From an uncultured Clostridia bacterium (GTDB lineage Bacteria > Bacillota > Clostridia > Oscillospirales > Oscillospiraceae), in the NCBI GenBank assembly GCA_946620645.1, contig CAMONN010000006.1, positions 1-35,523 on the forward strand: DNA of 35,523 nt, written 5' to 3'. A program made the position numbers and the translations under genes. The notes beneath the pieces were generated by a model that searched no databases, was not told the origin of the DNA, and saw only the letters and a program-made list of their open reading frames with translations. Each line of letters begins with the position of its first letter. Positions within the stretch are counted from its first letter, which is position 1. Shown here piece after piece: positions 8,917 to 26,070 of the stretch.

Positions 8917-9294
8917 TCAGTCGGCGCCGCTGCTGGATTCTTCATCCTCCGGATCCGGAACAACAATTTCCTTGACGGTAAAATCCTTGCCGCTGAGCAC
9001 GGTTTTTTCAAAGCTGCCGCAGTTGGGGCAGAATCCCTTGTATTCGATGACGTTGAAGATCTCGTCACAGGCATCACATTCCGCAAGCCCCGGTATGATG
9101 TGAATGTTCAGCCGGGTACCCTCCAGCATGCTGCCCTTTGTTGCCACGGGATAAAGCTCCTGAAGATATTCCGGGATGACCAGCGACAGCTCCCCGCAAT
9201 CCACGGTAACTTCACGGACAACCGGAATGTGGTGCTCCGCTGCGAAAGCGTCTACCGTCCGGACCAGCTGACGGAGGAGGCCGATCTCATGCAT
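8917..9294 (-). CDS. hypA: HypA-family nickel metallochaperone
   Basis: N-terminal MHE, CDAC...CPNC zinc site, VTVDCGELSLVIPEYL. MHE start at 9294 with SD GGAGG and overlap with upstream stop. Confidence 0.85.
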   Translation of the reverse strand: MHEIGLLRQLVRTVDAFAAEHHIPVVREVTVDCGELSLVIPEYLQELYPVATKGSMLEGTRLNIHIIPGLAECDACDEIFNVIEYKGFCPNCGSFEKTVLSGKDFTVKEIVVPDPEDEESSSGAD

Positions 9295-11968
9295 TGCCTC
9301 CACCGTACTTTCCGATGTGCTTCTTTACCACATTTACGCCGATTTTCGGCACGTTTTTGACAATGCGCCCCAGCGTATGGAAGTACTCCTGATTATCCGC
9401 GTCGTGGATCTTTTCCAGGTGGATGGCGTCAAATTTGCACTTGGTGGTGCAGATTCCGCAGCCGACGCACATAAACTGATCCACCACGGCGGTGCCGCAG
9501 CCGAGACAGCGGGCGCATTCGGCCTTCATCTGGTCCTCAGTGAAGGTCCCCCGCAGGTCGTTGAAGCTGGTTTTTGCCACGCTTCCGTCCGCCTGCACGG
9601 GCCTCTGCCGCGGCGCGGCGTCAAATCCGCTGAGGCCGATCTGTGCGGTGGACCTGTCGAAGGCCCTGTAATCCCGGTGGTCGCGTCCCAGATCCAGTGT
9701 CTGTCCCGCATGCACAAAGCGGTGGATCGAGACGGCCGCTTCCTTGCCTGCCGCGATGGCATCGATAACAAACTGTGGCCCTGTGACCACATCGCCGCCG
9801 GCGAACACGTCGGCAACTGCGGTCTGGCAGGTTACGGCGTCGGCTTCCACGGTACCGCGGGCACCGGCCGGCACCTCGATGCCGCACAGCTCAACCTTCT
9901 GGCCCGTTGCACTCAGGACGGAAGTGACGGCGACGCTTTCATATTCGCCGCATCCTTTCACACCCCGGCGCCCCTTCGCATCTTCAGCCTCGAGCTCCAT
10001 GCGCTCCAGCTTCAGGCTCAGGGCGCCGTCCTTTTCGCAGATTTCAACCGGCGCCGCAAGGAAGCGGAACTGTACGCCCTCTTCCTTCGCTTCCTGAATC
10101 TCATCCCGGTCGGCAGGCATCTCGGCTTCGCTTCTGCGGTAATATACGGTGACCTTCGCCCCCAGACGCACAGCGGCCCGCGCCACATCCATCGCCACGT
10201 TGCCGCCGCCGATGACGGCGACATCGGTCCCGATTTCGGGCAGTTCGCCTCTGTTTACGCGGCGCAGGAAGTCGATTCCGGTGCTTACGCCGGGCAGCTC
10301 CTCACCGGGAATGTTCAGCTTTGCGCCCTGCGATGCTCCGATCGCGAGGTAGAAAGCTTTAAATCCTTCCTTCCTCAGCTCCTCCAGCGTTACATCTTTG
10401 CCGACTTCAACGCCGGTTGCAAACCGGACGCCGATCTGACGGAGAATGTCAATTTCACTGCGGATGACGTCCTTTTCCAGCCGGAAGGAGGGAATCCCCA
10501 GGGTCAGCATGCCGCCGGGCTCCTGCTCCTTCTCGTAGACTGTGACGGGATATCCCTTCAGCGCCAGATAATAGGCGCAGCTCAGGCCGGCGGGGCCGGC
10601 GCCGATGACGGCGATTTTCTCCGGGTAGGGTTTGCCGATCTGGTTGACCATCTTCGGCACGTACCGCTTCTCGGCGTTCAGATCCTGCTCGGCGATAAAC
10701 TTCTTGATTTCATCGATGGCGACCGGGGCATCCATGCCGCCGCGGGTACAGGCTTCCTCGCATTTTTTGTTGCAGATGCGCCCGCAGACCGCCGGGAAGG
10801 GGAGTTCCTTTTTAATGAGCTCAAGGGCCTCGGCATAACGGCCTTCGGAGGCCAGACGGATATAGCCCTGCACCGGCACATGGGCGGGACAGGCGGACTT
10901 GCAGGGCGCTGTACCCTCGGGCATCACATCGGTGCGGTTCAGGCGGTAGTCGGCGTTGTAGCGTTTCCCGGACCAGAGGGTGTTCCGCGGGGTTTCCTCA
11001 GGCCGGTCCTCGTTGGAAGGACGGCTGCACAGTTTCTGGCCGAGTCGGACGGCATTCAGCTGGCAGTTTTCCACACACTGGCCGCAGGCGACGCACTTCT
11101 CCTTGTCCACGCGGGCAATGTAGTTGGTGCGGATGGCGTCCGGCGCACGGAAATAGGTCGCGATGCGCAGGGCAAAGCAGGAACACCCGCAGCAGTTGCA
11201 GATGGCTGTGGTGTCATCATAGCCGGGTGTCACATTCAGCTCGTGCACCAGCCCGTTGTCCTCAGCCCGCTTAAGGATCTCGAAGGCCTCTTCTTTTGAG
11301 ATGAGGCGGTGGGAGCCGGTTTCGGAGTAGTTGATGGCGTTGTCATTGACATACATGCACATGTCTTCTTCAAGATGGCCGCAGCCTTCGCCCATCAGCC
11401 TTCTGGCACGGCGGCAGGAACATGGCCCTACGGACACTGCCCACGCGTCTTCAATGATTTTTGCCACCTCATCGTAACTGGCCTTGCGGGTGTTGTTTTC
11501 AATGGCGCTCTGCACCGGGATAACGCGCATCAGGTTCATGCCCACATCCATAAACGGGGCCAGCATGGAAACCCGGACCCGGGTGTAGGCTTCAAAACAT
11601 TCTCCGAGTACGGGGTACTTGTCACACTGCTCGCGGTTGGAGAGCACGCCCTCCATGATACCGGGTACCCAGATGGGGTAGTACCAGCATTCCTTCCCGT
11701 CCACCATGCGGGTACGGATTACACCTGCCGTACGCAGCTTGTGAAGCTGCTCCAGTGTGAAGTTCAGGTCTTTTTTCGCCCGCCTTGCGATTTCCTCGGC
11801 GGTGCGGTTGGCTTCAAGACGCATGTGCATCATGACCTCGCACATGTCGTCATCAACAATCGGCTCCAGTATTTTGTACTCCGGATCATTGTAAGTGATT
11901 CCGGTGTAGGTCAGGCTTTCCAGACTGATTTTTGTCGCAAGTTTCAGAATATTGGGTCTGTGCGCCAT
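9287..11968 (-). CDS. multidomain FAD-dependent oxidoreductase: N-terminal wHTH-like/cysteine-rich region, 4Fe-4S, GltD-like FAD/NAD(P) module, C-terminal 4Fe-4S
   Basis: CVACGQCVENCQLNA, CKSACPAHVPVQGYI, IAVIGAGPAGLSCAYYLALKG (FAD), VAVIGGGNVAMDVARAAVRLG (NAD(P)), CVGCGICTTKCKFDAI; extra N-terminal GPCSCRRARRLMGEGCG and CNCCGCSC. Confidence 0.88.
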   Translation of the reverse strand: MAHRPNILKLATKISLESLTYTGITYNDPEYKILEPIVDDDMCEVMMHMRLEANRTAEEIARRAKKDLNFTLEQLHKLRTAGVIRTRMVDGKECWYYPIWVPGIMEGVLSNREQCDKYPVLGECFEAYTRVRVSMLAPFMDVGMNLMRVIPVQSAIENNTRKASYDEVAKIIEDAWAVSVGPCSCRRARRLMGEGCGHLEEDMCMYVNDNAINYSETGSHRLISKEEAFEILKRAEDNGLVHELNVTPGYDDTTAICNCCGCSCFALRIATYFRAPDAIRTNYIARVDKEKCVACGQCVENCQLNAVRLGQKLCSRPSNEDRPEETPRNTLWSGKRYNADYRLNRTDVMPEGTAPCKSACPAHVPVQGYIRLASEGRYAEALELIKKELPFPAVCGRICNKKCEEACTRGGMDAPVAIDEIKKFIAEQDLNAEKRYVPKMVNQIGKPYPEKIAVIGAGPAGLSCAYYLALKGYPVTVYEKEQEPGGMLTLGIPSFRLEKDVIRSEIDILRQIGVRFATGVEVGKDVTLEELRKEGFKAFYLAIGASQGAKLNIPGEELPGVSTGIDFLRRVNRGELPEIGTDVAVIGGGNVAMDVARAAVRLGAKVTVYYRRSEAEMPADRDEIQEAKEEGVQFRFLAAPVEICEKDGALSLKLERMELEAEDAKGRRGVKGCGEYESVAVTSVLSATGQKVELCGIEVPAGARGTVEADAVTCQTAVADVFAGGDVVTGPQFVIDAIAAGKEAAVSIHRFVHAGQTLDLGRDHRDYRAFDRSTAQIGLSGFDAAPRQRPVQADGSVAKTSFNDLRGTFTEDQMKAECARCLGCGTAVVDQFMCVGCGICTTKCKFDAIHLEKIHDADNQEYFHTLGRIVKNVPKIGVNVVKKHIGKYGGGNA

Positions 11969-12034
11969 ATTGATTCTCCCTTCATGAGAAAAGGGGACAG
12001 GGAGCAGCCGGGCCGCCCCCTGTCCCTGTCGGGT

Positions 12035-13249
12035 TTAAAAGAATTCTCCGGGGATCTCCAGCGTCAGGTCGCTGGTCGGGAAGCTGCAGCAGGGGTGAAT
12101 GTATCCGTAATGGACATCGGCCCAGCGGCGCATCTCGTTTTCCTGCGGGATGAAGACCGTGCCCTCCAGCAGGCGTGAGCGGCACCAGCCGCACTCGCCG
12201 GCGCGGCAGCGGGACGGGGCCTTGATGCCGGCGCGCTCAATGGCGACCAGAACCGGCTCATCGGCCGATGCGGGAATGGTCCATTCCTGGGGACCCTGCT
12301 TCACCTTGACGGAGAAGGCCTTGCCCTTTGCCTCCTGCGGATAGCCCTCGCATTCCCAGGGGGTCTTGGTGACGTCGATGAGCTTGCGGCGGAACAGCCG
12401 TTCCGGCAGGCCGAGCTTTTCAATCTCGGGCTTCAGGAACTTGTACATGGCCTCCGGTCCGCAGAGGAAGACGGAGAAGGGCTCCTCCTGCGGGGCGTAT
12501 TTTCTGATAAGGTCCGCGGTAATAAATCCGCTTTCAAAGCCGGTCTTTTCCTCTTCGGAGAGAACGTGGATGACTTTGAATTTCGGGCAGGCACGGGCCA
12601 GCTCGTCCAGCTCTCCCCGGAAGAGAATGTTTTCCTCGTTTCTGGAACCGAAGAGCAGCGTCAGGTTAAAGTCCTCAATGCCGTCTGCCAGCGCCCGGGC
12701 CATGGACAGGAAAGGCGTGATGCCGGAGCCGCCGGCGAGACCAATCACGTTTTTCGCATCTCTCAGGTCCTCGTAATAGAAGAATCCCAGAGGGCCGGAA
12801 GTGATGACCTTGTCACCGGGTTTCTTCTCCTCCAGAAGCCGGTCCGCTACAAAGCCGCCGGGGTTGGCACGGACGGTAATGGCGTATTCACCGGCCAGGG
12901 CATCCTTCGGCGAAGAGCAGAGGGAGTAGGAGCGGGTGACAAAGCTTCCGTCCATGGGCAGCTTCAGGGAGATGTACTGCCCGGCGCGGAAGTAGGGCAG
13001 GGGCGTGCCGTCGGCGCGTTTCAGAACGAAGGTTTTGGCCTGCGCTTCGCCGCGGTCGATGATGCGGTCGATGACCAGCTCCAGGAAATCCGGATGAAGG
13101 GCCTTCGCATTTTCGTTTACGGGGAAAACCCCGCTGATCTCATCGGCGGACGCTGCCTGGATGGCCTTTTCACGGACCTTCTTCATGTTCTTGAACTTGA
13201 GCATGTCGAATTTGCCGATCAGGCCGACTTTGATATTCAGATCAGGCAT
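12035..13249 (-). CDS. FNR-like FAD/NAD(P)-binding reductase with C-terminal plant-type 2Fe-2S ferredoxin domain
   Basis: RSYSLCSSP FAD motif, GLAGGSGITPFLSMAR, FLCGPEAMY, and CRAGECGWC...HPCC (CX4CX2CX30C) 2Fe-2S motif. Confidence 0.9.
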   Translation of the reverse strand: MPDLNIKVGLIGKFDMLKFKNMKKVREKAIQAASADEISGVFPVNENAKALHPDFLELVIDRIIDRGEAQAKTFVLKRADGTPLPYFRAGQYISLKLPMDGSFVTRSYSLCSSPKDALAGEYAITVRANPGGFVADRLLEEKKPGDKVITSGPLGFFYYEDLRDAKNVIGLAGGSGITPFLSMARALADGIEDFNLTLLFGSRNEENILFRGELDELARACPKFKVIHVLSEEEKTGFESGFITADLIRKYAPQEEPFSVFLCGPEAMYKFLKPEIEKLGLPERLFRRKLIDVTKTPWECEGYPQEAKGKAFSVKVKQGPQEWTIPASADEPVLVAIERAGIKAPSRCRAGECGWCRSRLLEGTVFIPQENEMRRWADVHYGYIHPCCSFPTSDLTLEIPGEFF

Positions 13250-14799
13250 TACTTGTTCCCTCCTTCACTCCAGGCTTTCAGGTCTCTCAAGGCGGCTCCG
13301 GCCAGCATCTGGCCGCAGACAATGGTGGCGGAATAACCGTCGCTGCGCGGGCCGGCCGCGCCGATGGGGCGCAGGCCCTTGATAGGATAGTCATTACCTA
13401 CCATCTGCATGCGGGCCATCATGCCGTCCCAGTCACGGGCCTCATAGCCGTAGACCGAGCCCTCCGGCACGCCGAGGTACCGCGCAAAGGTCCAGGGTGA
13501 GCCGACTTCCATTTCCTCAATGTGCCCGCTGAGATCGATGCCGGTTTTTTCCTTCAGGTTCTTCAGCATCTTTTTCACGCCCTCGTTCTTGAAGCGGAAG
13601 TAGTCTTCCTGCTTCAGTTCGCCCCATTCGTCCGGGGCGCCGAAGGTCGTGAAGGAGCATACGCAGGTTCCCGGAGGCGAGAAGTCGGGCAGAACGGTGT
13701 TGTAGCACAGGAAGATGGAGTAGTTGTTGGTCTTCATGCCGCCCTGGATGCGCTGGTACTCAACCACCGAGTCGGCGGTGCTGGGCAGGAAGTAGCTGTA
13801 GTCGGTAATGCCGAGCTCTTCGGCCGTGGCGTCGCAGCAGAAGTAGGCGGTGTACATGCGCCCGCCCATGATGCGGCCGCGGGCTTTGGAGAGCTTCTTT
13901 TCCCGCTCGGGGATGAGTTCCTTCGGGACCATCTTGCCGTAGATGATGTCGGGGTTGATGTTCGCAAGGGCGTAGTCGCACTCCACGTCGCCGAGGTTGG
14001 TGCGCACGCCGCAGAGCTTGTCGCCGTTGAAGAGGAACTCTTCCGCCCGGCAGTTAAACCACACATCGCCGCCCAGCTCCCGGAAGCGCTCGATCATGGC
14101 GGTGGAGTACTGGTGGGAGGTGTGCTCCGGAATGTAGGCGCTGCGCTGCACATACTTATGCACCATCGCGGCGTAGTGGATGAAGGCCAGATGCTCCATG
14201 TCCACACCCAGGTAGCTCCAGTAGGTGGAGAGAATATCCTGGCACTTCTTCGGCAGCTTCAGGGCGTTAAAGACCTTCTGGGTGCTGTAGGCGCCGCAGC
14301 GCAGCATATCGGGATACTCGCTCTGCAGGACCTTGGAATCGGGATTTCCTTTGGATGCGGTGATGTACGCGATGCCGTCAAGAACCTCCTGGAAAAGGTC
14401 AAAGAGCTTTGTCATTTTCTCGCGGGAGCCGGGAACGTATTCCTCCATCTTGTCGATGAAGTTTCCGATGCCGGCCGGCATGGTCACGTCCATGGGGCTT
14501 CCGTCGGAGTATCTGGAGATGATCCGGAAGCAGTCCTTGACTTCAACCCAGTTCAGCTTGACGCCGTAGCCTTCGAGAATCTTCCGGGTGTCGCCCGGGT
14601 TATCCGGCGGCCCGAAGTCGCACAGCTCGTGCAGGGAAGGCTCGATCTCAAAGCGGCCGCGGACGAAGCTGGTGGCGGCGCCGCCCGGAACGTTGTGCTT
14701 CTCGATCAGAAGCGTCTTTTTTCCTGCCAGCTGACATTGCAGCGCCGCGGACATTCCGGCGTTGCCGGCGCCGACGACGACGATGTCATATTTGGGCAT
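13249..14799 (-). CDS. CrtI/retinol-saturase-like NAD(P)/FAD-dependent oxidoreductase
   Basis: YDIVVVGAGNAGMSAALQCQLAGKKTLLIEKHNVPGG dinucleotide fold; C-terminal GLRPIGAAGPRSDGYSATIVCGQMLAGAAL; TAATG coupling to the next gene. Confidence 0.82.
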   Translation of the reverse strand: MPKYDIVVVGAGNAGMSAALQCQLAGKKTLLIEKHNVPGGAATSFVRGRFEIEPSLHELCDFGPPDNPGDTRKILEGYGVKLNWVEVKDCFRIISRYSDGSPMDVTMPAGIGNFIDKMEEYVPGSREKMTKLFDLFQEVLDGIAYITASKGNPDSKVLQSEYPDMLRCGAYSTQKVFNALKLPKKCQDILSTYWSYLGVDMEHLAFIHYAAMVHKYVQRSAYIPEHTSHQYSTAMIERFRELGGDVWFNCRAEEFLFNGDKLCGVRTNLGDVECDYALANINPDIIYGKMVPKELIPEREKKLSKARGRIMGGRMYTAYFCCDATAEELGITDYSYFLPSTADSVVEYQRIQGGMKTNNYSIFLCYNTVLPDFSPPGTCVCSFTTFGAPDEWGELKQEDYFRFKNEGVKKMLKNLKEKTGIDLSGHIEEMEVGSPWTFARYLGVPEGSVYGYEARDWDGMMARMQMVGNDYPIKGLRPIGAAGPRSDGYSATIVCGQMLAGAALRDLKAWSEGGNK

Positions 14800-14833
14800 T
14801 TGTACATTCCTCCTTTTGCGGTTGTGATTATGC

Positions 14834-15610
14834 CTATTTCTTGCTGCGCGCGGCGATCATGGCCCTGTATGCGGCAACCGCCTTCTGCAGGTCTTCCGTG
14901 CCGCAGCAGTAGGTGGACTGGGCCTGCTCGAACAGCCGCCCGGCGCAGAGGCCTCCCTCGTCGGTGAGGTTTATGCCCTTCTTGGCGAAGCGGACCGCGG
15001 CGGCGGGGCTGCGGGCGATGGTTGCGGCCATCTTCATGGCGCGCTCTTCCAGTTTCTCCAGGGGGACGACGACCTGGACCAGCCCGATGCGCAGCGCCTC
15101 CTCGGCGCCGACTTCCTCTCCGGTGAGGATCATCCGTTTGGCCTGCCCCACGCCGACCAGACGGGTCAGCTTCGAGGTTCCGCCCATGTCGGGCGACAGA
15201 CCCAGCTGTACCTCAGGCAGGGAGAAGCGGGCGTCCTCGGCGGCGATGCGAATATCGGCATCGAGAATTAACTCCATCCCCGATCCGATGCAAAGTCCCT
15301 GAACCGCCGCAATGACGGGATAGTTCTGTTCCTGCCAGAAGCCGTAGATTTTCTGCAGCCAGGGCAGCTTTTCCAGCACGTAGGCGGAGCTGACACCCTG
15401 CAGATAGTTCAGGTCAATGCCTGCGGAGAAACATTTTCCGTTGGCCTTAATGACCATACAGCGGATTCCCTCGGTTTTGGAGATGACTTCCTCGACTTCA
15501 TCGAGTTCCACATAGAAGCCCGCTTCAAAGATGTTGTAGGGAGGGCGGTTCAGCGTCAGTACGCCGATGCCCTTTTCCAGTGTGAACAGAAAGTATTTTC
15601 CTTCAAACAT
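14834..15610 (-). CDS. enoyl-CoA hydratase/isomerase family protein
   Basis: Crotonase signatures CFSAGIDLNYL, IAAVQGLCIGSGMELILDADIRIAAEDARFSLPEVQLGLSPDMGGT. Confidence 0.92.
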   Translation of the reverse strand: MFEGKYFLFTLEKGIGVLTLNRPPYNIFEAGFYVELDEVEEVISKTEGIRCMVIKANGKCFSAGIDLNYLQGVSSAYVLEKLPWLQKIYGFWQEQNYPVIAAVQGLCIGSGMELILDADIRIAAEDARFSLPEVQLGLSPDMGGTSKLTRLVGVGQAKRMILTGEEVGAEEALRIGLVQVVVPLEKLEERAMKMAATIARSPAAAVRFAKKGINLTDEGGLCAGRLFEQAQSTYCCGTEDLQKAVAAYRAMIAARSKK

Positions 15611-15656
15611 TCGCTTTCCTCCGTCAAATGATAAACGGTTCTGACAGCCTGACGGC

Positions 15657-17345
15657 CTACAGCCCGTGCTTCTCCTTGAACATGGCGCTCAGCGCCTTGC
15701 GGTCCGCCTTGCCGGCGGCGGTGCGGGGCAGCTCACTGATGAACTCATAGGCGATGGGGATTTTGTAGGGCGCCAGGGACTGCCGCAGGTACTTCTCGGC
15801 CTCTTCCGCGGTCATCTCTTCGCCTTCCTTCAGCACAGTGTACAGTACGGGCGCCTCGCCCTTCTTCGGGTGCACGATGCCGACGGCGCAGGCTTCCTTG
15901 ACTTTGGGGTTGGCGAACATGGCCTCGTCAATCTCCCGCGGGAAGACGTTGAAGCCGTTTACGATGATCATATCCTTTTTGCGGTCCTTGATGAAGATGA
16001 AGCCGTCTTCATCCATCAGCACCACGTCCGCGGTGTAGAGCCAGCCGTCCCGGATGGTAGCTTCGGTTGCTTCGGGGTTCTCCCAGTATTTCTCCATCAC
16101 CTGGGGACCGCGGCAGATGAGCTCGCCCGTCTCGCCCAGAGGCACCGGGGTCTTCCCGTCGACAGCGTCGACCACCACGAGGTCGGTATCCGGCACGGCA
16201 ACGCCCACAGAGCCGGCCTTCCGGACATGCATCGGGTTAATGGTGAGAATATTCGAGGTCTCGCTCATGCCGTAGCCTTCGACAATGGTGGCGCCGGTCT
16301 TGGCCTCCAGCTGCTCCATCACGGCCACCGGGCACGGAGCCGAGCCGCAGAAGATGCCCTTCAGGGAAGAGATATCCGCTTCGCCGGCCTGAACCTGCGG
16401 GGTGTTCAGAAGCCCGATCAGCATGGCGGGGACCGCCGCGAAGATGGTGGGCTTGTTCTTGACGATTTCAGCCAGCAGTGCGTCCGGCTTCGGCTGCGGA
16501 ACAACGATGATCGTGCCGCCGTTGGTCATGGTGATGCCGACGTTCGCGTTGAAGCCGTAAACGTGGTTCAGCGGAATCGCCGCGAGGGTGATAACCTCAT
16601 CACGGCCCACAATGGTGTAGTTCCGGGTGGTCCAGAGGGCTGTGCGGTAGCCCATGGTATAGACCATCCTGTTGGTAAGCACACAGCCCTTGGGTACGCC
16701 TGTAGTGCCGCCGGTATACTGGAGGCGGATCGGGTCGTCCATGGAAATCTCAATGTCCGGCTCGGTGTTCGGATGCGTTCCCACAAGGGCGTTGAAGTCA
16801 TACAGACCTTCAACCTGCGGCAGCTCTACCGCCCCGGAGGGAAGCTGGAAGGCGATGACACGCTTCACTTTGCAGTCGGGATTCTGAAGCATAGCAATGG
16901 CCTTCGGAGCAAAGGCCGCCATCACCACAACGGTTTCGGCACCGCTGTCGTTGAACTGGCCGGTCAGCTCAGGCACGGTATAGAGGGGGTTCGCAGGAAC
17001 TTCTATGGCGCCGATCTTCCACACGGCGTGCATGGCCAGCAGGTACTGGGGCACATTGGGCGCCATGATCGCCACACGGTCACCCTTCTTTACACCAAGG
17101 TCAAGGAAGGCGTTGGCCAGGCGGCGGGCCACATCATTGCAGTAGGCATAGGGGAGTACAAGATCACCCAGAACCGCATAGGGCTTCTTCGGGTTGGTTT
17201 CTGCCCAGTGGTTGAACCACCATTTACAGGGCTTGTCCTCATACTCGATCTTTTCCGGAATCTCCGCATCGTACTGCTTGCGCGCCAGTTCTGCGTTTTT
17301 TCTGGCGGCTTCGTCCAATGCTTTCAGGTATTCCTTGTCTTGCAT
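15657..17345 (-). CDS. AMP-binding acyl-CoA synthetase (fatty-acid-CoA ligase-like)
   Basis: LQYTGGTTGVPKGCVLTN P-loop, EGYGMSETSN, GWLYTADVVLMDEDGFIFIKDRKKDMIIVNGFNVFPREID, C-terminal RTAAGKADRK. Confidence 0.94.
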   Translation of the reverse strand: MQDKEYLKALDEAARKNAELARKQYDAEIPEKIEYEDKPCKWWFNHWAETNPKKPYAVLGDLVLPYAYCNDVARRLANAFLDLGVKKGDRVAIMAPNVPQYLLAMHAVWKIGAIEVPANPLYTVPELTGQFNDSGAETVVVMAAFAPKAIAMLQNPDCKVKRVIAFQLPSGAVELPQVEGLYDFNALVGTHPNTEPDIEISMDDPIRLQYTGGTTGVPKGCVLTNRMVYTMGYRTALWTTRNYTIVGRDEVITLAAIPLNHVYGFNANVGITMTNGGTIIVVPQPKPDALLAEIVKNKPTIFAAVPAMLIGLLNTPQVQAGEADISSLKGIFCGSAPCPVAVMEQLEAKTGATIVEGYGMSETSNILTINPMHVRKAGSVGVAVPDTDLVVVDAVDGKTPVPLGETGELICRGPQVMEKYWENPEATEATIRDGWLYTADVVLMDEDGFIFIKDRKKDMIIVNGFNVFPREIDEAMFANPKVKEACAVGIVHPKKGEAPVLYTVLKEGEEMTAEEAEKYLRQSLAPYKIPIAYEFISELPRTAAGKADRKALSAMFKEKHGL

Positions 17346-17381: not shown

Positions 17382-18101
17382 CTATCTTAACTGCTCATCA
17401 AGGCAGTTCAGGTACTCGTTGACGCTGCGCTGCAGCCGGCGGAAAGCGCCCTCGGCGTCCCCGGCGCGGATATAATCCAGATACCGCTTCGCCAGGTGCA
17501 CGTTCGCTTCGGCGCCGAACAGGGCGATGGAGCGCAGCCAGAATTCCATGATAATGGGCTTGAACTCGTTCAGCAGCAGCGGGAAAAACTCATTTCCGCT
17601 GCGGACGCAGATGCCCCTGTGATACCGGAACAGGAGCTCCGCCAGCGCCGCCCCTCCGCGGTCGGCCTTCTCCAGCAGCACATCGGCCTGAGAAAGCATC
17701 TCCTCCAGATAGGCGATGTCCCCGTCGCTGTGGTTTTCGGCAAGGCGCCGAAGCGCGGAGCCCTCAATGGCGATGCGCGCCTCCATAAAACTGTGGGTCT
17801 GCTTTTTGGTCATATTTCCGCCGTTCATGCGGATCAGCGCGTTCAGCGTTTCCATGGTGCCGGTTTCTTCATAGTTGGCCACTACGGCGCCCCGGCGGGG
17901 GGTGATCTCCAGAAAACCCTTCTGCATCAGCTCTACAAGCCCTTCATGGATCATCGTCTTGCTGATGCGGGTCTCTTCCTGCAGCTGGCGCTCCGAGGGA
18001 AGACTGGCGCCGACCTTCAGCTTCCCGGAGAGAATCTGCTCCTCCATTTTCCGGACAAAAATTTCTTTTTTAGTGGGGACTTCAATGACGCCGATTTCCA
18101 T
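17382..18101 (-). CDS. GntR-family transcriptional regulator with FCD-type ligand domain (FadR-like)
   Basis: wHTH GASLPSERQLQEETRISKTMIHEGLVELMQKGFLEITPRRGAVV; FCD-like FRYHRGICVRSGN and HLAKRYLDYIRAGDAEGA. Confidence 0.9.
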   Translation of the reverse strand: MEIGVIEVPTKKEIFVRKMEEQILSGKLKVGASLPSERQLQEETRISKTMIHEGLVELMQKGFLEITPRRGAVVANYEETGTMETLNALIRMNGGNMTKKQTHSFMEARIAIEGSALRRLAENHSDGDIAYLEEMLSQADVLLEKADRGGAALAELLFRYHRGICVRSGNEFFPLLLNEFKPIIMEFWLRSIALFGAEANVHLAKRYLDYIRAGDAEGAFRRLQRSVNEYLNCLDEQLR

Positions 18102-18111
18102 AATTCAGTTT

Positions 18112-18128
18112 ATCTGGTCCGACCAAAA
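18112..18128. promoter_or_regulatory. candidate FadR-type operator upstream of the regulator gene
   Basis: ATCTGGTCCGACCAAAA containing a perfect TGGT-CCG-ACCA palindrome, 10 nt upstream of the regulator start. Confidence 0.65.
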
Positions 18129-18235: not shown

Positions 18236-18288
18236 GAGGAATTCACAACTTATTTAAAAAAATATGTCAAAATGACGAAAAAATCGTC

Positions 18289-18317
18289 TTGCATTGATAC
18301 TGGGCTCATGATATAAT
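18289..18317 (+). promoter_or_regulatory. sigma70-type promoter of the plus-strand acyl-CoA operon
   Basis: TTGCAT-N17-TATAAT upstream of the FadN-like gene. Confidence 0.75.
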
Positions 18318-18322
18318 CAAGA

Positions 18323-18339
18323 CACTGGTCGGTCCAGAT
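18323..18339. promoter_or_regulatory. candidate FadR-type operator at the predicted transcription start
   Basis: CACTGGTCGGTCCAGAT; reverse complement ATCTGGACCGACCA matches site 18112-18125 (ATCTGGTCCGACCA) at 13/14 positions. Confidence 0.65.
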
Positions 18340-18406
18340 TTTGTCTTTCAAGCCTGTCGCCTGCGGCGCTTGCGCCCCGGGTTGTGCGAAAGGAGTTTTG
18401 TGTTTT

Positions 18407-20707
18407 ATGGCTAACAGTATAAGAAAGCTTGCGGTCGTCGGTGCGGGCACCATGGGGGCCGCTATTGCCGCCTGCGGTGCCCGCGCCGGTCTGGATGTGG
18501 TCCTTATGGTTCGCGGGAAGGGTGCTGAGAGCGGCCGGGACCGCGCCGCGAAGGCGGTGGACACCATTGTAAAGAAGGGTGAGATGAAGGGTTCGGATGA
18601 GGCGCGCATCCGGGCCGGGATTTTCTGTGCGGACATGGGGGCGGACGCGGACGTCCTGAAGGGCTGCGACCTGGTGATTGAGGCTGTCGCCGAAGACCTC
18701 GCCATTAAGCAGAATACCGCTGCGTTCCTCTTTGAGCATGCGGGGGAGGAGACGATTGTCGGTACCAATACTTCAAACATCTCCATTTCCTCAATTGCCG
18801 AGGGGCTGACGGAGGGACAGCGGCGCCGCTTCCTTGGGATTCATTTCTTCAACCCCGTCCGCTACATGGACCTTGTGGAGGTGATCTCCTGCGGCGAGAC
18901 GGACGAGGCGATTGTGCAGCGTGTGGAGACGCTGATGAATGACCGCTTCGGCAAAACCCCTATCCGCTGCAAGGATGCCCCGGGCTTCATCGCGAACCGC
19001 ATCGGTTCCATGGCGCTGACCTCTGTGATGAATGCCACTGTGGATGCCGGCTACGGCTTTGCGGAGGCCGACGCCCTGACCGGCGATCTGATCTTCCGCC
19101 CGAAGCAGGGCGCCTTCAAGCTTCTGGACCTGGTCGGCCTGGATATCAGTGTCCACACGGTGGATTATATGGCCGGGGCTGCGATTCCCGATTATGAAAA
19201 GCCTTTCCGCAACCGGCCCGGGGTCCTTTATGACATCACCTCTCGGGGTTACCTTGGCAATAAAACAGGTTCCGGCTTCTACTGCAAGCGCAAGGGAAAG
19301 AAGGGGACCGAGCGTTTTGTCTGGGATTACAAGACCTGTGAGTATGTCCCGCTGGAAAGGCCCCGCCCCGCCTCTCTCGCCGATGTCCGTGACAAGGCGG
19401 CGCGGCTTCGCGCTCTTCTGGCCGGGGATTATCCCGAGACGCCCTTCCTGCGCCGTGTGGTGCTGGAGCCGCTGTGGCTTGCAATGAAGAACGCGGATGA
19501 GATCAGCTACAGCTTCACGGATATCGACACCGCCATGCGCGGCGGATACAACTGGGTGAAGGGACCCTTCGAGCTCTGCGACCTGCTGGGGGCGAAGGAG
19601 GTCCTGAACCTGATGGCGGCCCGGGGGCTTGAGCCCCCCGCCTGGGCAAGGGAGAAGGTGGAGAAGGACGGCGCCTTCTATGCCGGCGTTTCGCCCCGGA
19701 AGGTTCCCTATCTGCAGCTGACGGACAGCAGGGCCGTGATTATGGAGAATAAAGACGCCGCCCTCTGCGACCTTGGCGACGGGGTGGCCCTTTTCACCCT
19801 GCGCACGAAGGCCAACACCTACACTACGCCTGCGGCCCAGCTGATGCTCTCCGCGGCGGAGGAGGTCGAGAAAAGCGAGGCCTTCAGGGCCATGGTGGTC
19901 TGCAACCCGGGGGCAAACCTCGGCGCGGGCGCGAATCTTTACGAAGTGGCCGCTGCCATCGAGGCGGGGCAGTTTGACCTGCTGGAGAAAAGTGTGGAGG
20001 AGTTCCAGCGTGCGAATCTCCGCCTGAAATATCTGAAAAAGCCGGTGGTTGTGGCGGCGAAGGGGCAGGCACTGGGCGGCAGCGCCGAGCTGATGCTTCA
20101 TGCCGGCTGTGTGGTCGCCCATCAGGAGCTCTATGCCGGCCTTGTGGAGATGGGCGTCGGCCTCGTTCCCTCGGGCGGCGGCTGTGCGGAGCTTCTCTTC
20201 CGCGCTACCGAGGGCCTGCAGTACGGGCAGATGGCCCGGATCCTGGCTGAGATTGATGAGCTCGTCCTTCCCATCGCCCAGGCAAAATACAGCATGAGCG
20301 CCGAGGAAGCTGTGAAAAACCGTTATCTTCGCCGCGGAGACCTGATTGTTGCCAAGGCCGATGCGCTCCTTTCACAGGCCAGGGCCACGGCCGTCCGTCT
20401 GGCGGATGCGGGCTGGCGGCCTCCGGTAAAGGGGACGGTTACTGCCGCGGGTGAGAGCGGCTACACCCATCTGATGGCCACCGTGAACGTGATGCTCTCC
20501 GGCCGGATGATGACGCCCTACGATGCCGTCATCGTGGAAAAACTCGCCCGGATCTTCTCCGGCGGCGATGCCCTCGCCGGGGAGCAGATTACCGAGGAGG
20601 ATGTGCTGTTTGAGGAGAGAAAGGCCTTTATGGACCTCTGCCATAATGAGAAGACGCTGGAACGCATAAAGGGCATGGTCGCAACGGGCAAACCCGTGCG
20701 CAACTGA
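18407..20707 (+). CDS. FadN-like 3-hydroxyacyl-CoA dehydrogenase with enoyl-CoA hydratase domain
   Basis: LAVVGAGTMGAAIAACGARAG, NTSNISISSIAEG, GIHFFNPVRYMDLVEVI, DAPGFIANRIG; C-terminal crotonase part GQALGGSAELMLHAGCVVAHQELYAGLVEMGVGLVPSGGG; SD AAAGGAG. Confidence 0.92.
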   Translation: MANSIRKLAVVGAGTMGAAIAACGARAGLDVVLMVRGKGAESGRDRAAKAVDTIVKKGEMKGSDEARIRAGIFCADMGADADVLKGCDLVIEAVAEDLAIKQNTAAFLFEHAGEETIVGTNTSNISISSIAEGLTEGQRRRFLGIHFFNPVRYMDLVEVISCGETDEAIVQRVETLMNDRFGKTPIRCKDAPGFIANRIGSMALTSVMNATVDAGYGFAEADALTGDLIFRPKQGAFKLLDLVGLDISVHTVDYMAGAAIPDYEKPFRNRPGVLYDITSRGYLGNKTGSGFYCKRKGKKGTERFVWDYKTCEYVPLERPRPASLADVRDKAARLRALLAGDYPETPFLRRVVLEPLWLAMKNADEISYSFTDIDTAMRGGYNWVKGPFELCDLLGAKEVLNLMAARGLEPPAWAREKVEKDGAFYAGVSPRKVPYLQLTDSRAVIMENKDAALCDLGDGVALFTLRTKANTYTTPAAQLMLSAAEEVEKSEAFRAMVVCNPGANLGAGANLYEVAAAIEAGQFDLLEKSVEEFQRANLRLKYLKKPVVVAAKGQALGGSAELMLHAGCVVAHQELYAGLVEMGVGLVPSGGGCAELLFRATEGLQYGQMARILAEIDELVLPIAQAKYSMSAEEAVKNRYLRRGDLIVAKADALLSQARATAVRLADAGWRPPVKGTVTAAGESGYTHLMATVNVMLSGRMMTPYDAVIVEKLARIFSGGDALAGEQITEEDVLFEERKAFMDLCHNEKTLERIKGMVATGKPVRN

Positions 20708-20719
20708 GGAGGAGTGAAC

Positions 20720-21907
20720 ATGGAACGTAAAAATGCGGTAATTGTCGCCTTCGGGCGCAGTGCCATTGCCAAGGCCATCAAGGGCAGCCTCCGCTACACC
20801 GGCTGCGTGGACTTCGGCTCTCAGGTGCTGAAGGGGATCCTGGCCAAAAATCCCGGGTTCGACCCCGCTCTTGCCGAGGACCTGATCTGCGGCTGCGCGA
20901 TTCCTGAGGCCGAACAGGGGCTGAACATCGGGCGTCTGCTGGCCGACAGCTCCGGCTTTCCCCTGACCACCGCCGGCCAGACGGTGAACCGGTTCTGCGC
21001 TTCCGGCCTGCAGTCCATCGCCAGTGCCGCCAACGCCATCATGGCCGGTCAGGCCAGGTGCATTGTGGCGGGCGGCCTTGAAAACATGAGCAAGGTGCAG
21101 ATGCACCGGGTCGCGATTATTCCGGACAGTGTGAGCTTTGCCTCCTATCCCGACAACTTTGACACCATGGGCATTACCGCCGAGAATGTCGCGGAAAAAT
21201 ACGGCATCTCCCGTGAGCGGCAGGATGCTTTCTCCTGTGAGAGCCATCATAAGGCCGCCGCCGCCATCGCCGCCGGAAAGTTCAAAGAGGAGATCATTCC
21301 CGTCCAGGCCAAGCGCCCCGTCAAAAAGCCGGACGGCACGCCGGGCTGGGAGTCCTTCACCTTTGACACCGACGAGTGCGTCCGTCCGGACACCACTCTG
21401 GAGGGCCTCGCGAAGCTGAAGCCCCTCTTCCGCATGGGCGGCAGCGTGACGGCGGGGAACTCCTCGCAGATGAACGATGCTGCGGCTTTCGTGGTCCTGA
21501 TGGAGGAGGAGTTTGCCCGAAGTCTGGGGCTTACGCCCATCGCCCGCTTCGTGAGCTTCGCCGTGCGCGGCGTCCACCCGGCCTATATGGGCCTGGGTCC
21601 CATCGAGGCCATTCCCCGCGCCCTGGACCTTGCCGGCATGACCCTTGCCGACATCGACCTTATTGAGCTGAATGAGGCTTTCGCCTCCCAGTCTCTGGCC
21701 TGCATTGATGAGCTGGGCCTTAATACCGACATTGTCAACGTCAATGGCGGCGGCATCGCCTTCGGCCACCCGCTGGGCTGCACCGGCGCGTATCTGACGA
21801 TGAAGCTGATCGGCGAGCTCCGGCGCCGCGGCCAGTCCCGCGGTCTGGTATCCATGTGCATCGGCGGCGGTATGGGTGCTGCCGGCATCTTTGAAATGAT
21901 CGACTAA
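20720..21907 (+). CDS. thiolase (acetyl-CoA C-acyltransferase, FadA-like)
   Basis: NRFCASGLQSIASAANAIMAGQ catalytic Cys region, ELNEAFASQSLA, NVNGGGIAFGHPLGCTGAY, SMCIGGGMGAAGIFE. Confidence 0.94.
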   Translation: MERKNAVIVAFGRSAIAKAIKGSLRYTGCVDFGSQVLKGILAKNPGFDPALAEDLICGCAIPEAEQGLNIGRLLADSSGFPLTTAGQTVNRFCASGLQSIASAANAIMAGQARCIVAGGLENMSKVQMHRVAIIPDSVSFASYPDNFDTMGITAENVAEKYGISRERQDAFSCESHHKAAAAIAAGKFKEEIIPVQAKRPVKKPDGTPGWESFTFDTDECVRPDTTLEGLAKLKPLFRMGGSVTAGNSSQMNDAAAFVVLMEEEFARSLGLTPIARFVSFAVRGVHPAYMGLGPIEAIPRALDLAGMTLADIDLIELNEAFASQSLACIDELGLNTDIVNVNGGGIAFGHPLGCTGAYLTMKLIGELRRRGQSRGLVSMCIGGGMGAAGIFEMID

Positions 21908-21927
21908 ATTTCAGGAGGAGCGATACG

Positions 21928-22893
21928 ATGAAAACCAGAATCACCGAACTCTTCGGCATTGAACATCCCATCATCTGCGGCGGCATGCTGTGGGTTACGG
22001 ATGCGAAGCTCTGCGCCGCCATTTCCGAGGCGGGGGGCCTGGGCTGCATTACCGCGGACCAGTACACCAGCGGCGATGCCCTGCGGGAAGCGATCCGTGA
22101 AGTCAAGGCCCTGACGGACAAGCCCTTCGGCGTGAATATCACCCTCATGAAGAGCTTCCGCATCACGGAGGAGACCTTTATGGACTTCTTCCGGGTCTGC
22201 GCGGAGGAAAAGGTCGCGAATATCGAGGTCTCCGGTCTCTTTGCCACGGACTTCATCCCCATGCTCCATGAACACGGGGTGAAAATCACCCACAAGGTCG
22301 GCGCGGTGCGCCACGCCATGAAGATCGAGCGCCTGGGCTATGACGCCGTTATCGTCGCCGGCGTGGAAGAGGGCGGCCATCCGCTGTCCGATAACGTGGC
22401 AACGTCGGTGCTTCTGCCCAAGGTGGCGGAGAGCGTAAAGATCCCCATCCTTGCCACCGGCGGCATGGTGGACGGCAAGTCCATGGCGGCCGCCCTCTGC
22501 CTGGGTGCGGACGGCATCATGATGGCCACACGTTTCCTGGCGTCTGAAGAGTGCTGGGTGCACGAGAACATCAAAAACTGGATTGTCCAGCTGAATGAGA
22601 CCGACACCGATCTCTTCTGCCACACAACGCTCCAGGCCCGCGGCGTGAAGAACAGTGTTCTCGCAAAGGTAAATGAACTGGAAAAGAATGGCGCGGAGCC
22701 TTCTGAGATTGTCCGCGCCGTCTCCGGCAAGAAGCTTCTTGCGGCCCTGCGGGAAGGCGACACCGAAGGCGCGGCCTTCCTCTTCGGCCAGAGCATCGGG
22801 CGGATTCATGACGTCAAGTCCTGCAAGGCGATCATCGACGATACCATGGCAGCCTGTGAGGAGACTCTGCGGGCCAAGGCCGCGCTTTTCTGA
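21928..22893 (+). CDS. FabK/nitronate monooxygenase-family flavin oxidoreductase (copy 1)
   Basis: RITELFGIEHPIICGGM...AISEAGGLG...KPFGVNITLM, GGMVDGKSMAAALCLGADGIMMATRFLASEEC. Confidence 0.9.
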   Translation: MKTRITELFGIEHPIICGGMLWVTDAKLCAAISEAGGLGCITADQYTSGDALREAIREVKALTDKPFGVNITLMKSFRITEETFMDFFRVCAEEKVANIEVSGLFATDFIPMLHEHGVKITHKVGAVRHAMKIERLGYDAVIVAGVEEGGHPLSDNVATSVLLPKVAESVKIPILATGGMVDGKSMAAALCLGADGIMMATRFLASEECWVHENIKNWIVQLNETDTDLFCHTTLQARGVKNSVLAKVNELEKNGAEPSEIVRAVSGKKLLAALREGDTEGAAFLFGQSIGRIHDVKSCKAIIDDTMAACEETLRAKAALF

Positions 22894-22904
22894 GGAGTAC
22901 CGCC

Positions 22905-23696
22905 ATGGAAGAGAAAGAACGCACCCCTCTGTACCGGGTGGAAAACGGCGTGGCAACCCTCACGCTGAACCGCCCGGAGACGCTGAATTCCTTCACCACC
23001 GACTTTGTCCACGAAATAAACGATGCGATCATCCGTGCCGACGGGGACGATGATGTGCGGGTCCTTCTCCTGACCGGGGAGGGCCGGGGCTTTACCTCCG
23101 GCGGAAATCTCCAGGAGCTCGCCGCCATGAACCTCGACCGTAAAAGGGCCATTTACGATGTCGACTCCACCGCCGATATGGTCCGCCTCCTGTACAATGT
23201 GAAAAAGCCGGTTATTGCCGCGGTCAACGGACCGGCCTACGGCGCGGGGATTGCCCTGGCAATGGCCTGCGACCTTCTCATTGCCTCCGACCGCGCACAG
23301 TTCGGCTTCTCCTTCACCGGGCTCGGCTTCTGCCCCGACAGCGGCACCACCTGGTTTCTGACCCGTTCCGTAGGGTATTACAAGGCCTGCGAAATTCTCT
23401 TCTCGGCTAAAACCCTCAACGCCGATGAGCTTCTCTCTCTGGGCCTTGTGAACATGGTGGTTCCCCATGAGGCGCTCCTTCCCACTGCGGTGAAGACAGC
23501 GGCCCGCATTGCAAAGGGGCCGGCCCTCGCCCTGATGCTGCAGAAGCGGGTCCTGCGCAACGCCGTCACCACCACCTTTGAGCAGAACCGGGATTATGAG
23601 GCCGTCAGCCAGATTTTCGCTTCCCAGACCGATGACTGCCGGGAGGGGCTGACCGCGGCCCTGGAGCGGCGCCGGCCGGAGTTTCAGGGAAAATAA
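22905..23696 (+). CDS. enoyl-CoA hydratase/isomerase family protein
   Basis: GRGFTSGGNLQELAAM, IAAVNGPAYGAGIALAMACDLLIASDRAQFGFSFTGLGFCPDSGTTWFL. Confidence 0.92.
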   Translation: MEEKERTPLYRVENGVATLTLNRPETLNSFTTDFVHEINDAIIRADGDDDVRVLLLTGEGRGFTSGGNLQELAAMNLDRKRAIYDVDSTADMVRLLYNVKKPVIAAVNGPAYGAGIALAMACDLLIASDRAQFGFSFTGLGFCPDSGTTWFLTRSVGYYKACEILFSAKTLNADELLSLGLVNMVVPHEALLPTAVKTAARIAKGPALALMLQKRVLRNAVTTTFEQNRDYEAVSQIFASQTDDCREGLTAALERRRPEFQGK

Positions 23697-23744
23697 CGAT
23701 TCAGCCCGGGGCCGAAGAGGCTCCGGGCTCTGGAGGTACCCGTT

Positions 23745-25088
23745 TTGAGCTGGAAAGAAGACTATCAATCAAAATTCAAAAGCGCCGAGGAGGCGGTCTC
23801 CGTCGTTAAGGACGGCGACTCGGTGGCCTACGGCGAGTTCGTTATGGCCTCCATGCTTCTCGATGGGGCTTTTGCCCGCCGGGTTCCGGAGCTGAAGAAT
23901 ATCATCCTCCGTGCCACCACCTGCCCCTTCCCGCCGAAAGCGGTGCTGGCGGACCCGAAGCTGGAGCATGTGATGTATAACGACTGGCATTTTTCGCCGG
24001 CCAGCCGGAAGCTCTGCGACGCCGGTCTCTGCCGCTATGTGCCGATGAATTACCACGCCGGCCCCGAAACCATCCGCCGCGGGCTCATCGACCGGATCAA
24101 TGTCGCCATGCTGATGGTTTCTCCTCCGGACGATCAGGGCTATGTCAGCCTCGGCACCTCCTCTTCCATTACACCCACCTATATTCAGAACGCCCGCTAT
24201 ATCATTGCCGAGGTCAACGAAAGCGTGCCCCGCACCTTCTGCGATGATGCGACAAAGGTTCACGTTTCCCAGATCGACTGTTTTGTGCAGGGGCCGAACC
24301 GGCCGCTCATTGAGGTTCCGACACCGCCGCCCACCCCGGTGGATGAAAAAATCGCCGAGCTGGTTGTAAGCCTTGTCTCCGACGGCGCCTGCATCCAGCT
24401 GGGGATCGGCAGTATGCCGAACGCTGTGGGCGAGCTGATTGCCCAGTCCGGGCTGAAGGATCTGGGCGTCCATACCGAAATGCTCTGCGACGCCTATGTC
24501 GCCATGGCCGAGGCCGGCTGCATTACCGGCCGGTACAAGACTACCGACCCCGGGAAGATCGTCTATACCTTCGCCATGGGCACAAAGAAGCTCTATGACT
24601 TCCTGGACGGAAACCCCGACTGCCTGCTGGCTCCGGTGGACTATACCAACGATCCTTACATTATCGCCAAAAACGACAATATGGTATGCCTCAATAACGC
24701 CATTGAGGTGGACCTGTACGGCCAGGTCGCCTCCGAGACCTCCGGCCCGCGCCAGATTTCCGGTACCGGCGGCCAGCTGGATTTCATCCAGGCGGCTGCC
24801 CGTTCAAAGGGCGGAAAGGGCCTGATCTGCCTGTCCTCCACCTATGCCGATCATGACGGAAGCATACGCTCCCGCATTCTGCCGCACCTGGGCCCCTGCC
24901 AGATCGTGACAGTTCCCCGCAGCTTCAATCAGTTTGTCATTACCGAGTACGGCATTGCCGACCTTCGGGCGAAAACCACCTGGGAGCGTGCGGAAGCGCT
25001 GATTTCCGTGGCACATCCGGATTTCCGGGAGGGCCTGATACATGAGGCCGAAGCGCAGGGCCTCCGCGTTCACAACATCAGAGAGTGA
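23745..25088 (+). CDS. class I acyl-CoA:acetate-type CoA-transferase (4-hydroxybutyrate/butyryl-CoA transferase family), TTG start
   Basis: LGIGSMPNAVGEL, QISGTGGQLDFIQAAARSKGGKGLICLSST, FVITEYGIADLRAKT; SD GGAGG upstream of TTG 23745. Confidence 0.88.
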   Translation: MSWKEDYQSKFKSAEEAVSVVKDGDSVAYGEFVMASMLLDGAFARRVPELKNIILRATTCPFPPKAVLADPKLEHVMYNDWHFSPASRKLCDAGLCRYVPMNYHAGPETIRRGLIDRINVAMLMVSPPDDQGYVSLGTSSSITPTYIQNARYIIAEVNESVPRTFCDDATKVHVSQIDCFVQGPNRPLIEVPTPPPTPVDEKIAELVVSLVSDGACIQLGIGSMPNAVGELIAQSGLKDLGVHTEMLCDAYVAMAEAGCITGRYKTTDPGKIVYTFAMGTKKLYDFLDGNPDCLLAPVDYTNDPYIIAKNDNMVCLNNAIEVDLYGQVASETSGPRQISGTGGQLDFIQAAARSKGGKGLICLSSTYADHDGSIRSRILPHLGPCQIVTVPRSFNQFVITEYGIADLRAKTTWERAEALISVAHPDFREGLIHEAEAQGLRVHNIRE

Positions 25089-25098
25089 GGAACAGAGT

Positions 25099-26070
25099 AT
25101 GGACAGAAAGCTGAACACCCGTATTACTGAGATGCTCGGCATCCAGCGCCCGATTCTCAGCGGCGCTATGCAGTGGCTGGCCAAAGCCGAACTGGTGGCC
25201 GCCGTTTCCAATGCCGGGGGCCTCGGCGTCATGTCTTCGGCGACCTTCCCGACGGCGGAAGACCTCAGGGCGGAGATCCGCAAATGCAAGGCCCTGACCG
25301 ACAAGCCCTTCGCCGTGAACCTCACGCTGATGCCTTCTCTGGCGCCGCCGGATTATCCGGCCTATGTGAAGGTCTGCATCGAGGAGGGAATCCGGATCAT
25401 GGAGACCTCCGGCCGGGCCCCGGAAGCCTTTATGCCCTATTTCAAGCAGGCCGGCATGAAGGTGATTCATAAATGCACCATCGTGAAGCACGCGCTGAAA
25501 GCCCAGGCCATCGGCTGCGATGCGGTCATCATGGACGGTACCGAGGCGGCCGGCCATGTGGGTGAAAACGATGTCGGTTCCATGGTCCTCTGGCCGGCGG
25601 CAGTGGACGCCCTGGACATCCCGGTCATCGCCTGCGGCGGCGTAGGGGACGGGAGAGGCCTTGCGGCGGCGCTGATGCTGGGCTGCGAGGGCGCTACCGT
25701 CGGCACCCGCTTTTTCCTCTCCGAAGAGGCGCCCGCCCTGCGTGCGGGGAAAGAGGCTGTCGCCCTTCATGCCGACGAGATGAGCACCACCCTGGTGCTG
25801 CGCCGGTTTACCAACACCACCCGCGTCCTGAATAACGGCCTTGCCGTAAAGGTGAAACAGCTGGAGGAGAGCGGGGCCCCCTTTGAGGAAATCGCTCCTC
25901 TGGCCTCCGGGCGAAGGCTGAAGGCCGCCTTTGAAACCGGGAATCTGGATGACGGCGTTCTGACCATCGGCCAGGTGACGGGCATTCTCCATGACATCCT
26001 CCCGGTTCAGGAAATCATGGACCGCATGATGGAAGAGTGCTTTGCCTGCCTCGACAGGTATCGCGGGTAA
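25099..26070 (+). CDS. FabK/nitronate monooxygenase-family flavin oxidoreductase (copy 2)
   Basis: RITEMLGIQRPILSGAM...VSNAGGLGVMSS...KPFAVNLTLMPS, DGTEAAGHVGENDVGSM, ACGGVGDGRGLAAALMLGCEGATVGTRF. Confidence 0.9.
   Translation: MDRKLNTRITEMLGIQRPILSGAMQWLAKAELVAAVSNAGGLGVMSSATFPTAEDLRAEIRKCKALTDKPFAVNLTLMPSLAPPDYPAYVKVCIEEGIRIMETSGRAPEAFMPYFKQAGMKVIHKCTIVKHALKAQAIGCDAVIMDGTEAAGHVGENDVGSMVLWPAAVDALDIPVIACGGVGDGRGLAAALMLGCEGATVGTRFFLSEEAPALRAGKEAVALHADEMSTTLVLRRFTNTTRVLNNGLAVKVKQLEESGAPFEEIAPLASGRRLKAAFETGNLDDGVLTIGQVTGILHDILPVQEIMDRMMEECFACLDRYRG

Follow-up and report, generated by a model that had tools for sequence, protein, structure and literature searches.

What could an anaerobic gut bacterium do with a beta-oxidation-type gene set that comes without an acyl-CoA dehydrogenase and with a pair of unusual flavoproteins instead? 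The question is raised by a locus of an uncultured Clostridia bacterium of the Oscillospiraceae, located on contig CAMONN010000006.1 of assembly GCA_946620645.1, positions 1 to 35,523 of which constitute the window analysed here. The window lies on contig 6 of a 1.27-Mb metagenome-assembled genome (MAG) with a completeness of 57.5%, and its closest named relatives are ruminant-gut Clostridiales/Oscillospiraceae MAGs such as RUG542. In this locus, a GntR/FCD regulator (GntR) stands between two divergent arms. One encodes an acyl-CoA ligase (ACL), an enoyl-CoA hydratase (ECH1), a CrtI-like flavoprotein (CrtI, 93% identical in RUG542) and a reductase (FNR); the other a FadN-like bifunctional enzyme (FadN), a thiolase (THL), two FMN proteins (NMO1 and NMO2), a second crotonase-fold protein (ECH2) and a CoA-transferase (CAT). 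From gene context, on which our readings of substrate and direction rest, we propose, tentatively and at somewhat less than even confidence, a substrate-inducible acyl-CoA-linked disproportionation of an unsaturated acid, most likely a fatty acid, that would dispense with acyl-CoA dehydrogenase.

The order GntR-ACL-ECH1-CrtI-FNR, diverging from FadN-THL-NMO1-ECH2-CAT, was retrieved in many species of one ruminant-gut genus of Oscillospiraceae/Clostridiales, using a codon-usage gene caller on 40 neighbourhoods from related genomes, some of the compared loci being shortened by contig ends. As this order is kept across species whose proteins share 74-97% identity, its conservation is far beyond chance. 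NMO2 closes the plus arm in five species (G051, G064, G040, G070 and G015; G and L numbers are our genome and locus labels), the genes beyond being unrelated, and the minus arm stops at FNR. The conserved unit thus comprises 11 genes, from 12035 to 26070. It leaves out the neighbouring genes for an IsrA-like oxidoreductase and HypA, a pair that stands elsewhere in relatives and had been counted in the minus arm by an initial annotation of this DNA. An MBL-fold hydrolase (26113-27204) was also rejected as a member of the plus arm, not being conserved 3' of NMO2; relatives of it (74-79%) occur near other CrtI-FNR pairs (L057, L060). All the genes named initially are intact open reading frames, in the order and about the place given, and their assignments are backed by Pfam and NCBIfam profiles, one label (GltD) excepted. 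As first supposed, the cluster had no described pathway in the open-access papers searched; its parts are of familiar kinds, and it is their combination that is undescribed.

The region between the arms suggests that they are controlled together. In an alignment of the GntR/FadN intergenic region, TGGTCCGACCA is invariant beside the GntR start in 9/9 species, and CTGGTCGG[T/C]CCAG, also present in 9/9, lies directly 3' of a conserved TATAAT/TATACT-type box in the FadN promoter. Over ten genomes the motif TGGTCSGWCCA is almost confined to this region: its exact matches in the own MAG are sites 1 and 2 only, G051 and G064 have no site elsewhere, and G040 and G070 have a few extra ones. Such a near-unique pair of predicted operators is the pattern expected of a dedicated local GntR, which would govern both arms through the two sites and render the pathway inducible by its substrate. 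The initial annotation depended on arms conserved and regulated together; the former was found, the latter is predicted from sequence only, and neither spoke against it.

The metabolic core resembles classical FadN/FadA beta-oxidation by its ligase, hydratase, 3-hydroxyacyl-CoA dehydrogenase and thiolase, all keeping their catalytic residues, as well as by its isomerase-type crotonase and FadR-like regulator, in agreement with the beta-oxidation core, joined to acid activation and transfer of CoA, that was recognised at the outset. It differs from that pathway by the CrtI-FNR pair and two FabK-like proteins found instead of acyl-CoA dehydrogenase and electron-transfer flavoprotein (ETF). Of the two glutamates that act in hydration in crotonases, both are kept in ECH1 and in the crotonase domain of FadN and neither in ECH2, which carries a PaaG-like PDSG motif and is, judging from these residues, of the isomerase type. 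Since unsaturated substrates need an isomerase, ECH2 counts in favour of one. A profile search detected no acyl-CoA dehydrogenase or ETF gene within the cluster. Among the nine genomes carrying the cluster, acyl-CoA dehydrogenase, tested as PF02770, is absent from eight (G051, G064, G026, G015, G040, G022, G004 and G005), the first four being 97%, 95%, 94% and 93% complete, respectively. ETF, tested as PF01012, is also absent from the near-complete G051 and G064, which leaves these two with neither the conventional beta-oxidation of saturated acids nor a reduction by Bcd-Etf. A beta-oxidation core with an isomerase and no dehydrogenase suits an acid already carrying a double bond.

CrtI and FNR constitute an obligate pair of an uncharacterised, paralogous family. 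FNR adjoins CrtI for 43 of the 45 CrtI genes of the genus, and of 76 distant loci that could be tested, from Clostridia, Bacilli, Spirochaetes, Deltaproteobacteria, Chloroflexi, Actinobacteria and one Lokiarchaeon, 74 have the two side by side. FNR displays FAD, NAD(P) and 2Fe-2S domains in profile searches. The structure predicted for CrtI is confident (pLDDT 88.9) and has gamma-carotenoid desaturase as its best solved match (PDB 4rep, TM 0.78/0.82). This fold and a weak full-length profile match are shared with carotenoid CrtI/CrtD/CrtISO, from which the family departs by scores far below their cut-offs, by invariant E-K/Q-H-N-x-P-G-G and S/T-L-H motifs and by the nearly constant presence of FNR; no carotenoid genes were seen among the neighbours, and carotenoid biosynthesis was rejected. 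The family also recalls limonene dehydrogenase (CtmAB) and sterol delta-24 desaturase, anaerobic flavoenzymes acting at allylic positions with a similar S/T-L-H motif near the N terminus. His57 of this motif is invariant among 38 CrtI sequences down to 29% identity and is mostly preceded by S/T-L; earlier positions differ from the flavinylated-His motif G-F-L/R-x-N/S-T/L-H-A, which is thus partly matched. In contrast to the window, with its single CrtI and FNR, those enzymes are oxidative heterodimers of two related flavoprotein subunits, and the paper on them mentions no reductase using NAD(P)H as their partner. C=C reduction is favoured as the direction of the pair, which the initial annotation had not assigned, by the lack of acyl-CoA dehydrogenase in eight of the nine cluster genomes and, on redox potentials, by the NAD(P)H-type partner. 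A flavoprotein chain that transfers electrons at a double bond of the activated acid, as first put forward, is retained as the best inference. An initial search of the open-access literature brought up nothing relevant on CrtI ene-reductases.

Another clade of the same CrtI-FNR family points to the kind of substrate. It lies directly 3' of a homologue of the P. acnes polyunsaturated fatty acid isomerase (PAI, PDB 2b9w; 57% over the aligned parts, E 9e-137), in which R88, F168 and F193, presumed active-site residues of PAI, are conserved. This homologue was found in 48 searched genomes of the genus, and in about 40 of them it is adjacent to CrtI-FNR on one strand, the matches in the others being fragmentary or unlinked. 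In a tree, the isomerase-linked CrtI sequences form one group, a single neighbour that has no isomerase excepted. PAI itself isomerises and does not reduce; a gene for a conjugated linoleic acid reductase of Butyrivibrio has reportedly been described once, by Fukuda in 2007. The isomerase loci can be more elaborate, with a divergent AMP-ligase and an acyl-ACP thioesterase (L069, L070, L178) or with two IsrA-like genes and HypA (L070, L124). Including a small acyl-carrier-like protein, the isomerase-CrtI-FNR loci L069, L070, L124 and L178 form a candidate biohydrogenation locus by themselves.

For the reactions, the electron direction and the substrate, we infer the following scheme, of which crotonate fermentation by syntrophs is an analogue. 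The acid would be activated by ACL, or by CAT using acetyl-CoA, and ECH2 would shift its double bond into the 2-position. ECH1 or FadN would hydrate the 2-enoyl intermediate, FadN would oxidise the alcohol to the ketone, giving NADH, and THL would split off acetyl-CoA. The reducing power would be spent on saturating the C=C bond of further substrate, passing from NAD(P)H through the FAD and 2Fe-2S of FNR to the flavin of CrtI. NMO1 and NMO2 would probably assist at the 2-enoyl-CoA level, as the neighbouring IsrA-HypA cassette perhaps does in this strain, and CAT would finally move CoA back to acetate and free the saturated acid. The unsaturated nature of the substrate is supported by the CrtI-FNR clade beside the PAI homologue, and by Syntrophomonas sp. 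DTU018, which joins the pair to three counterparts of window genes in the order CrtI-FNR-ECH1-NMO1-ACL (50-57% identity for ECH1, NMO1 and ACL). In one deltaproteobacterial and two Chloroflexi loci the pair is likewise joined to ligase, NMO and/or crotonase genes. It is further supported by the IsrA family, tied to the hydrogenation of conjugated C=C bonds and having oleate hydratase near its homologues in Acetobacterium woodii and A. fimetarium (Kronen et al., PMC10134865).

Several findings weigh against this scheme. No characterised member of the CrtI-FNR family was found, and the nearest characterised relatives by reaction type, limonene dehydrogenase and sterol delta-24 desaturase, work in the oxidative direction. 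The isomerase-linked CrtI is only 33% identical to that of the window, and no PAI homologue was found in the window or in its own 57%-complete MAG. G070 carries the cluster together with two acyl-CoA dehydrogenases. Orthologous CrtI-FNR pairs (74-84%) occur without the ligase and FadN arms in L036-L040, L045 and L046, so that saturation may proceed independently of CoA. Finally, ACL resembles feruloyl/coumarate ligases about as closely as it does fatty ones, its matches in PDB being fatty-acyl and feruloyl-CoA synthetases.

This last resemblance leads to the alternative that survives best, although we consider it unlikely: the same machinery acting on another substrate, either an acid of the terpenoid/isoprenoid kind or a hydroxycinnamic acid from plants. 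In its favour are the proximity of ACL to feruloyl/4-coumarate ligases, the related CrtI-FNR-ligase clusters of Desulfobacteraceae and another proteobacterium, adjoining genes that resemble a Liv-type ABC transporter, and those of Chloroflexi, adjoining a glycyl radical enzyme. Against it stand the FadN, FadA and FadR-like types in the window, a cluster devoid of transporter genes and the fatty-acid isomerase that accompanies a different clade of the family. A little less probable still is reverse beta-oxidation, in which THL would condense, FadN reduce and ECH1 dehydrate, NMO1 and NMO2 would reduce 2-enoyl-CoA with NADH, CAT would release a medium-chain acid with acetate as the acceptor, and CrtI-FNR would only trim double bonds of the primer. 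Such chain elongation needs neither acyl-CoA dehydrogenase nor ETF and agrees with the FabK-like matches of both NMO proteins and with a transferase of the butyryl-CoA:acetate type. It leaves unexplained the ligase, the isomerase-type ECH2, the strict same-operon CrtI-FNR pair and the FadR-like local regulator, and the FadN and FadA types present are those of long-chain degradation. Least probable is an oxidative CrtI replacing acyl-CoA dehydrogenase, as a desaturase or an allylic hydroxylase akin to limonene dehydrogenase or delta-24 desaturase with FNR removing the electrons, since, despite the carotenoid desaturase fold, the conserved His in a motif resembling the flavinylated one and the genomes devoid of acyl-CoA dehydrogenase, the transfer of electrons to NAD(P)+ would be uphill in a fermenter, and the known enzymes are two-flavoprotein heterodimers rather than one CrtI joined to an NAD(P)H-type reductase.

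Our preferred reading remains the disproportionation of an acid that is unsaturated and most likely fatty. A wider extension of it, which we regard as speculative and on the whole rather doubtful, is that CrtI-FNR pairs are new NAD(P)H-dependent double-bond saturases, often accompanied by nickel-linked IsrA-HypA, that supply rumen and gut biohydrogenation in an uncultured genus bearing linoleate isomerase; the version in the window would be coupled to acyl-CoA activation and cleavage, and would ferment unsaturated fatty acids without acyl-CoA dehydrogenase. With other members of the CrtI-FNR family next to a linoleate isomerase, the window genes are a candidate for the little-known enzymes by which dietary fats become saturated in the rumen. 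The genus offers isomerase homologues, IsrA-like genes that number up to 7 in a genome and often several CrtI-FNR pairs, in tight clusters that lend themselves to expression and assay. If true, these enzymes would be a target where the fat composition of meat and milk is concerned, and the acyl-CoA-dehydrogenase-free route for unsaturated acids may extend to syntrophs.

Table 1. Features of the two divergent arms and of the adjoining IsrA-HypA cassette, with positions in the window
Feature	Position	Strand	Remarks
HypA-type nickel metallochaperone	8917..9303	-	PF01155 98.6 bits; MHE start, two CxxC; likely start 9294
IsrA-like oxidoreductase, 893 aa	9287..11968	-	winged-helix N-terminus, six-Cys site, 4Fe-4S, DPD domain II, FAD/NAD(P) domain, C-terminal 4Fe-4S
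Terminator-like hairpin, 15 pairs	11994..12026	-	between FNR and IsrA-HypA cassette
FNR	12035..13249	-	FAD/NAD(P) reductase with plant-type 2Fe-2S at the C terminus; would donate electrons to CrtI
CrtI-like flavoprotein, 516 aa	13249..14799	-	proposed C=C reductase; invariant His57, S/T-L-H motif
ECH1, enoyl-CoA hydratase	14834..15610	-	both catalytic Glu present
ACL, long-chain-type acyl-CoA ligase	15657..17345	-	PRK06187 414 bits, under cut-off 476
GntR/FCD regulator	17382..18101	-	FCD 51.2; FadR_C 28.6 vs cut-off 23.6
Operator 1 TGGTCCGACCA (predicted)	18115..18125		minus-arm side
Operator 2 CTGGTCGGTCCAG (predicted)	18325..18337		just 3' of FadN TATAAT
FadN-like 3-hydroxyacyl-CoA dehydrogenase/enoyl-CoA hydratase	18407..20707	+	profile matches, catalytic residues
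THL, 3-ketoacyl-CoA thiolase, FadA type	20714..21907	+	profile matches, catalytic residues
NMO1, FabK/PA1024-type FMN protein	21928..22893	+	possible enoyl-CoA reductase
ECH2, crotonase-fold isomerase type	22905..23696	+	no hydratase Glu; PaaG-like PDSG
CAT, 4-hydroxybutyrate/butyryl-CoA:acetate CoA-transferase family	23745..25088	+	TIGR03948 482 bits; PDB 3gk7
NMO2, second FabK/NMO FMN protein	25099..26070	+	last conserved plus-arm gene, five species

The start of FadN is probably at 18407 and not at 18341, given the conserved ribosome-binding site and ATG at the former. The score of CAT (482 bits) is below the curated TIGR03948 cut-off of 674.8 bits.

The cassette following FNR was the part of the locus where the first interpretation had to be revised: its arms and core stood, as did its C=C step as the best inference, while its chain of three flavoproteins resolves into CrtI-FNR, an obligate pair, and IsrA-HypA, a cassette separable from it. 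The 893-aa protein, labelled a GltD-like 4Fe-4S flavoprotein, scores under the cut-offs of the GltD/glutamate synthase models and is a homologue of IsrA, its closest published relative, proposed by proteomic inference as the isoprene reductase of the Acetobacterium wieringae isr operon, a clade-9 oxidoreductase of 901 aa with CxC at 180/182 and 254/256 (Kronen et al., PMC10134865). Both share a layout of about 900 aa with DPD domain II (PF14691 at 353-431 in the window protein) and FAD/NAD(P) domain (PF07992 at 451-741), a CxC-CxC six-cysteine site, flanking 4Fe-4S sites (C292-C302 and C834-C844) and an adjacent HypA. The six cysteines (C183, C185, C204, C257, C259 and C264) are invariant in homologues down to 31% identity, and a search for a solved fold of the N-terminal domain gave nothing convincing, only weak winged-helix-like matches. 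Unlike the isr operon, the window cassette has neither HypB, for which no gene occurs in the window, nor a second HypA/ferredoxin, and it adjoins CrtI-FNR and an acyl-CoA operon; isoprene is not implied.

The hypA gene overlaps the end of the IsrA-like gene, and the hairpin upstream of the latter (12026-11994, with a T-rich tail) indicates that the cassette is its own unit or is read through at a reduced level. It is a detached two-gene cassette in G040, G051, G064 and G026, and follows or flanks CrtI-FNR in L036-L040, L049 and L067. Among 988 IsrA homologues, 73% have HypA within 5 genes and 56% HypB, and DUF5692 is a frequent neighbour (PMC10134865); DUF5692 adjoins CrtI-FNR in a Lachnospiraceae locus (L147) whose genome also has IsrA-like and HypA genes. 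HypA was rejected as the mark of a [NiFe] hydrogenase in the cluster, where no hydrogenase gene is present; PF00374 gives one short match elsewhere in 14 of 15 genomes. HypA may have a general role alongside its pairing with IsrA-like proteins, which recurs again and again in these sequences.

IsrA-like genes (E <= 1e-100) number 1-7 in every listed genome of the genus and occur in one genome only outside it. Several of them, e.g. in G005:C14, G042:C10, G047:C26, G010:C116 and G063:C4, show one stop codon inside the matched stretch, the reading being otherwise intact; these could reflect early termination close to the C-terminal end or have another cause. The CrtI matches returned by searches of plasmids for cultured carriers were all distant (<=27%), and a single IsrA-like match covered the full length or nearly so, an unannotated gene (44.6%) on a mobilizable 267-kb plasmid of Subdoligranulum variabile (L157, OY725877.1).

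CrtI-FNR pairs were also observed in other settings. In Chloroflexi (L142:6234-21112 and L148:70-14821), a ligase-NMO-crotonase-CrtI-FNR series continues into genes for a glycyl radical enzyme and its activase and for two further ligases. Two different pairs stand in tandem in L036, L039 and L040 (82-84% and 37-38% identical to that of the window), with IsrA-like and HypA genes in between and no ligase or FadN arms. In another clade (L049:9864-17453 and L054:9740-14208), the pair is followed by the large and small subunits of aconitase X, and in L049 then by IsrA-like and HypA genes, which suggests that some hydroxy acid is first dehydrated and then reduced at C=C.

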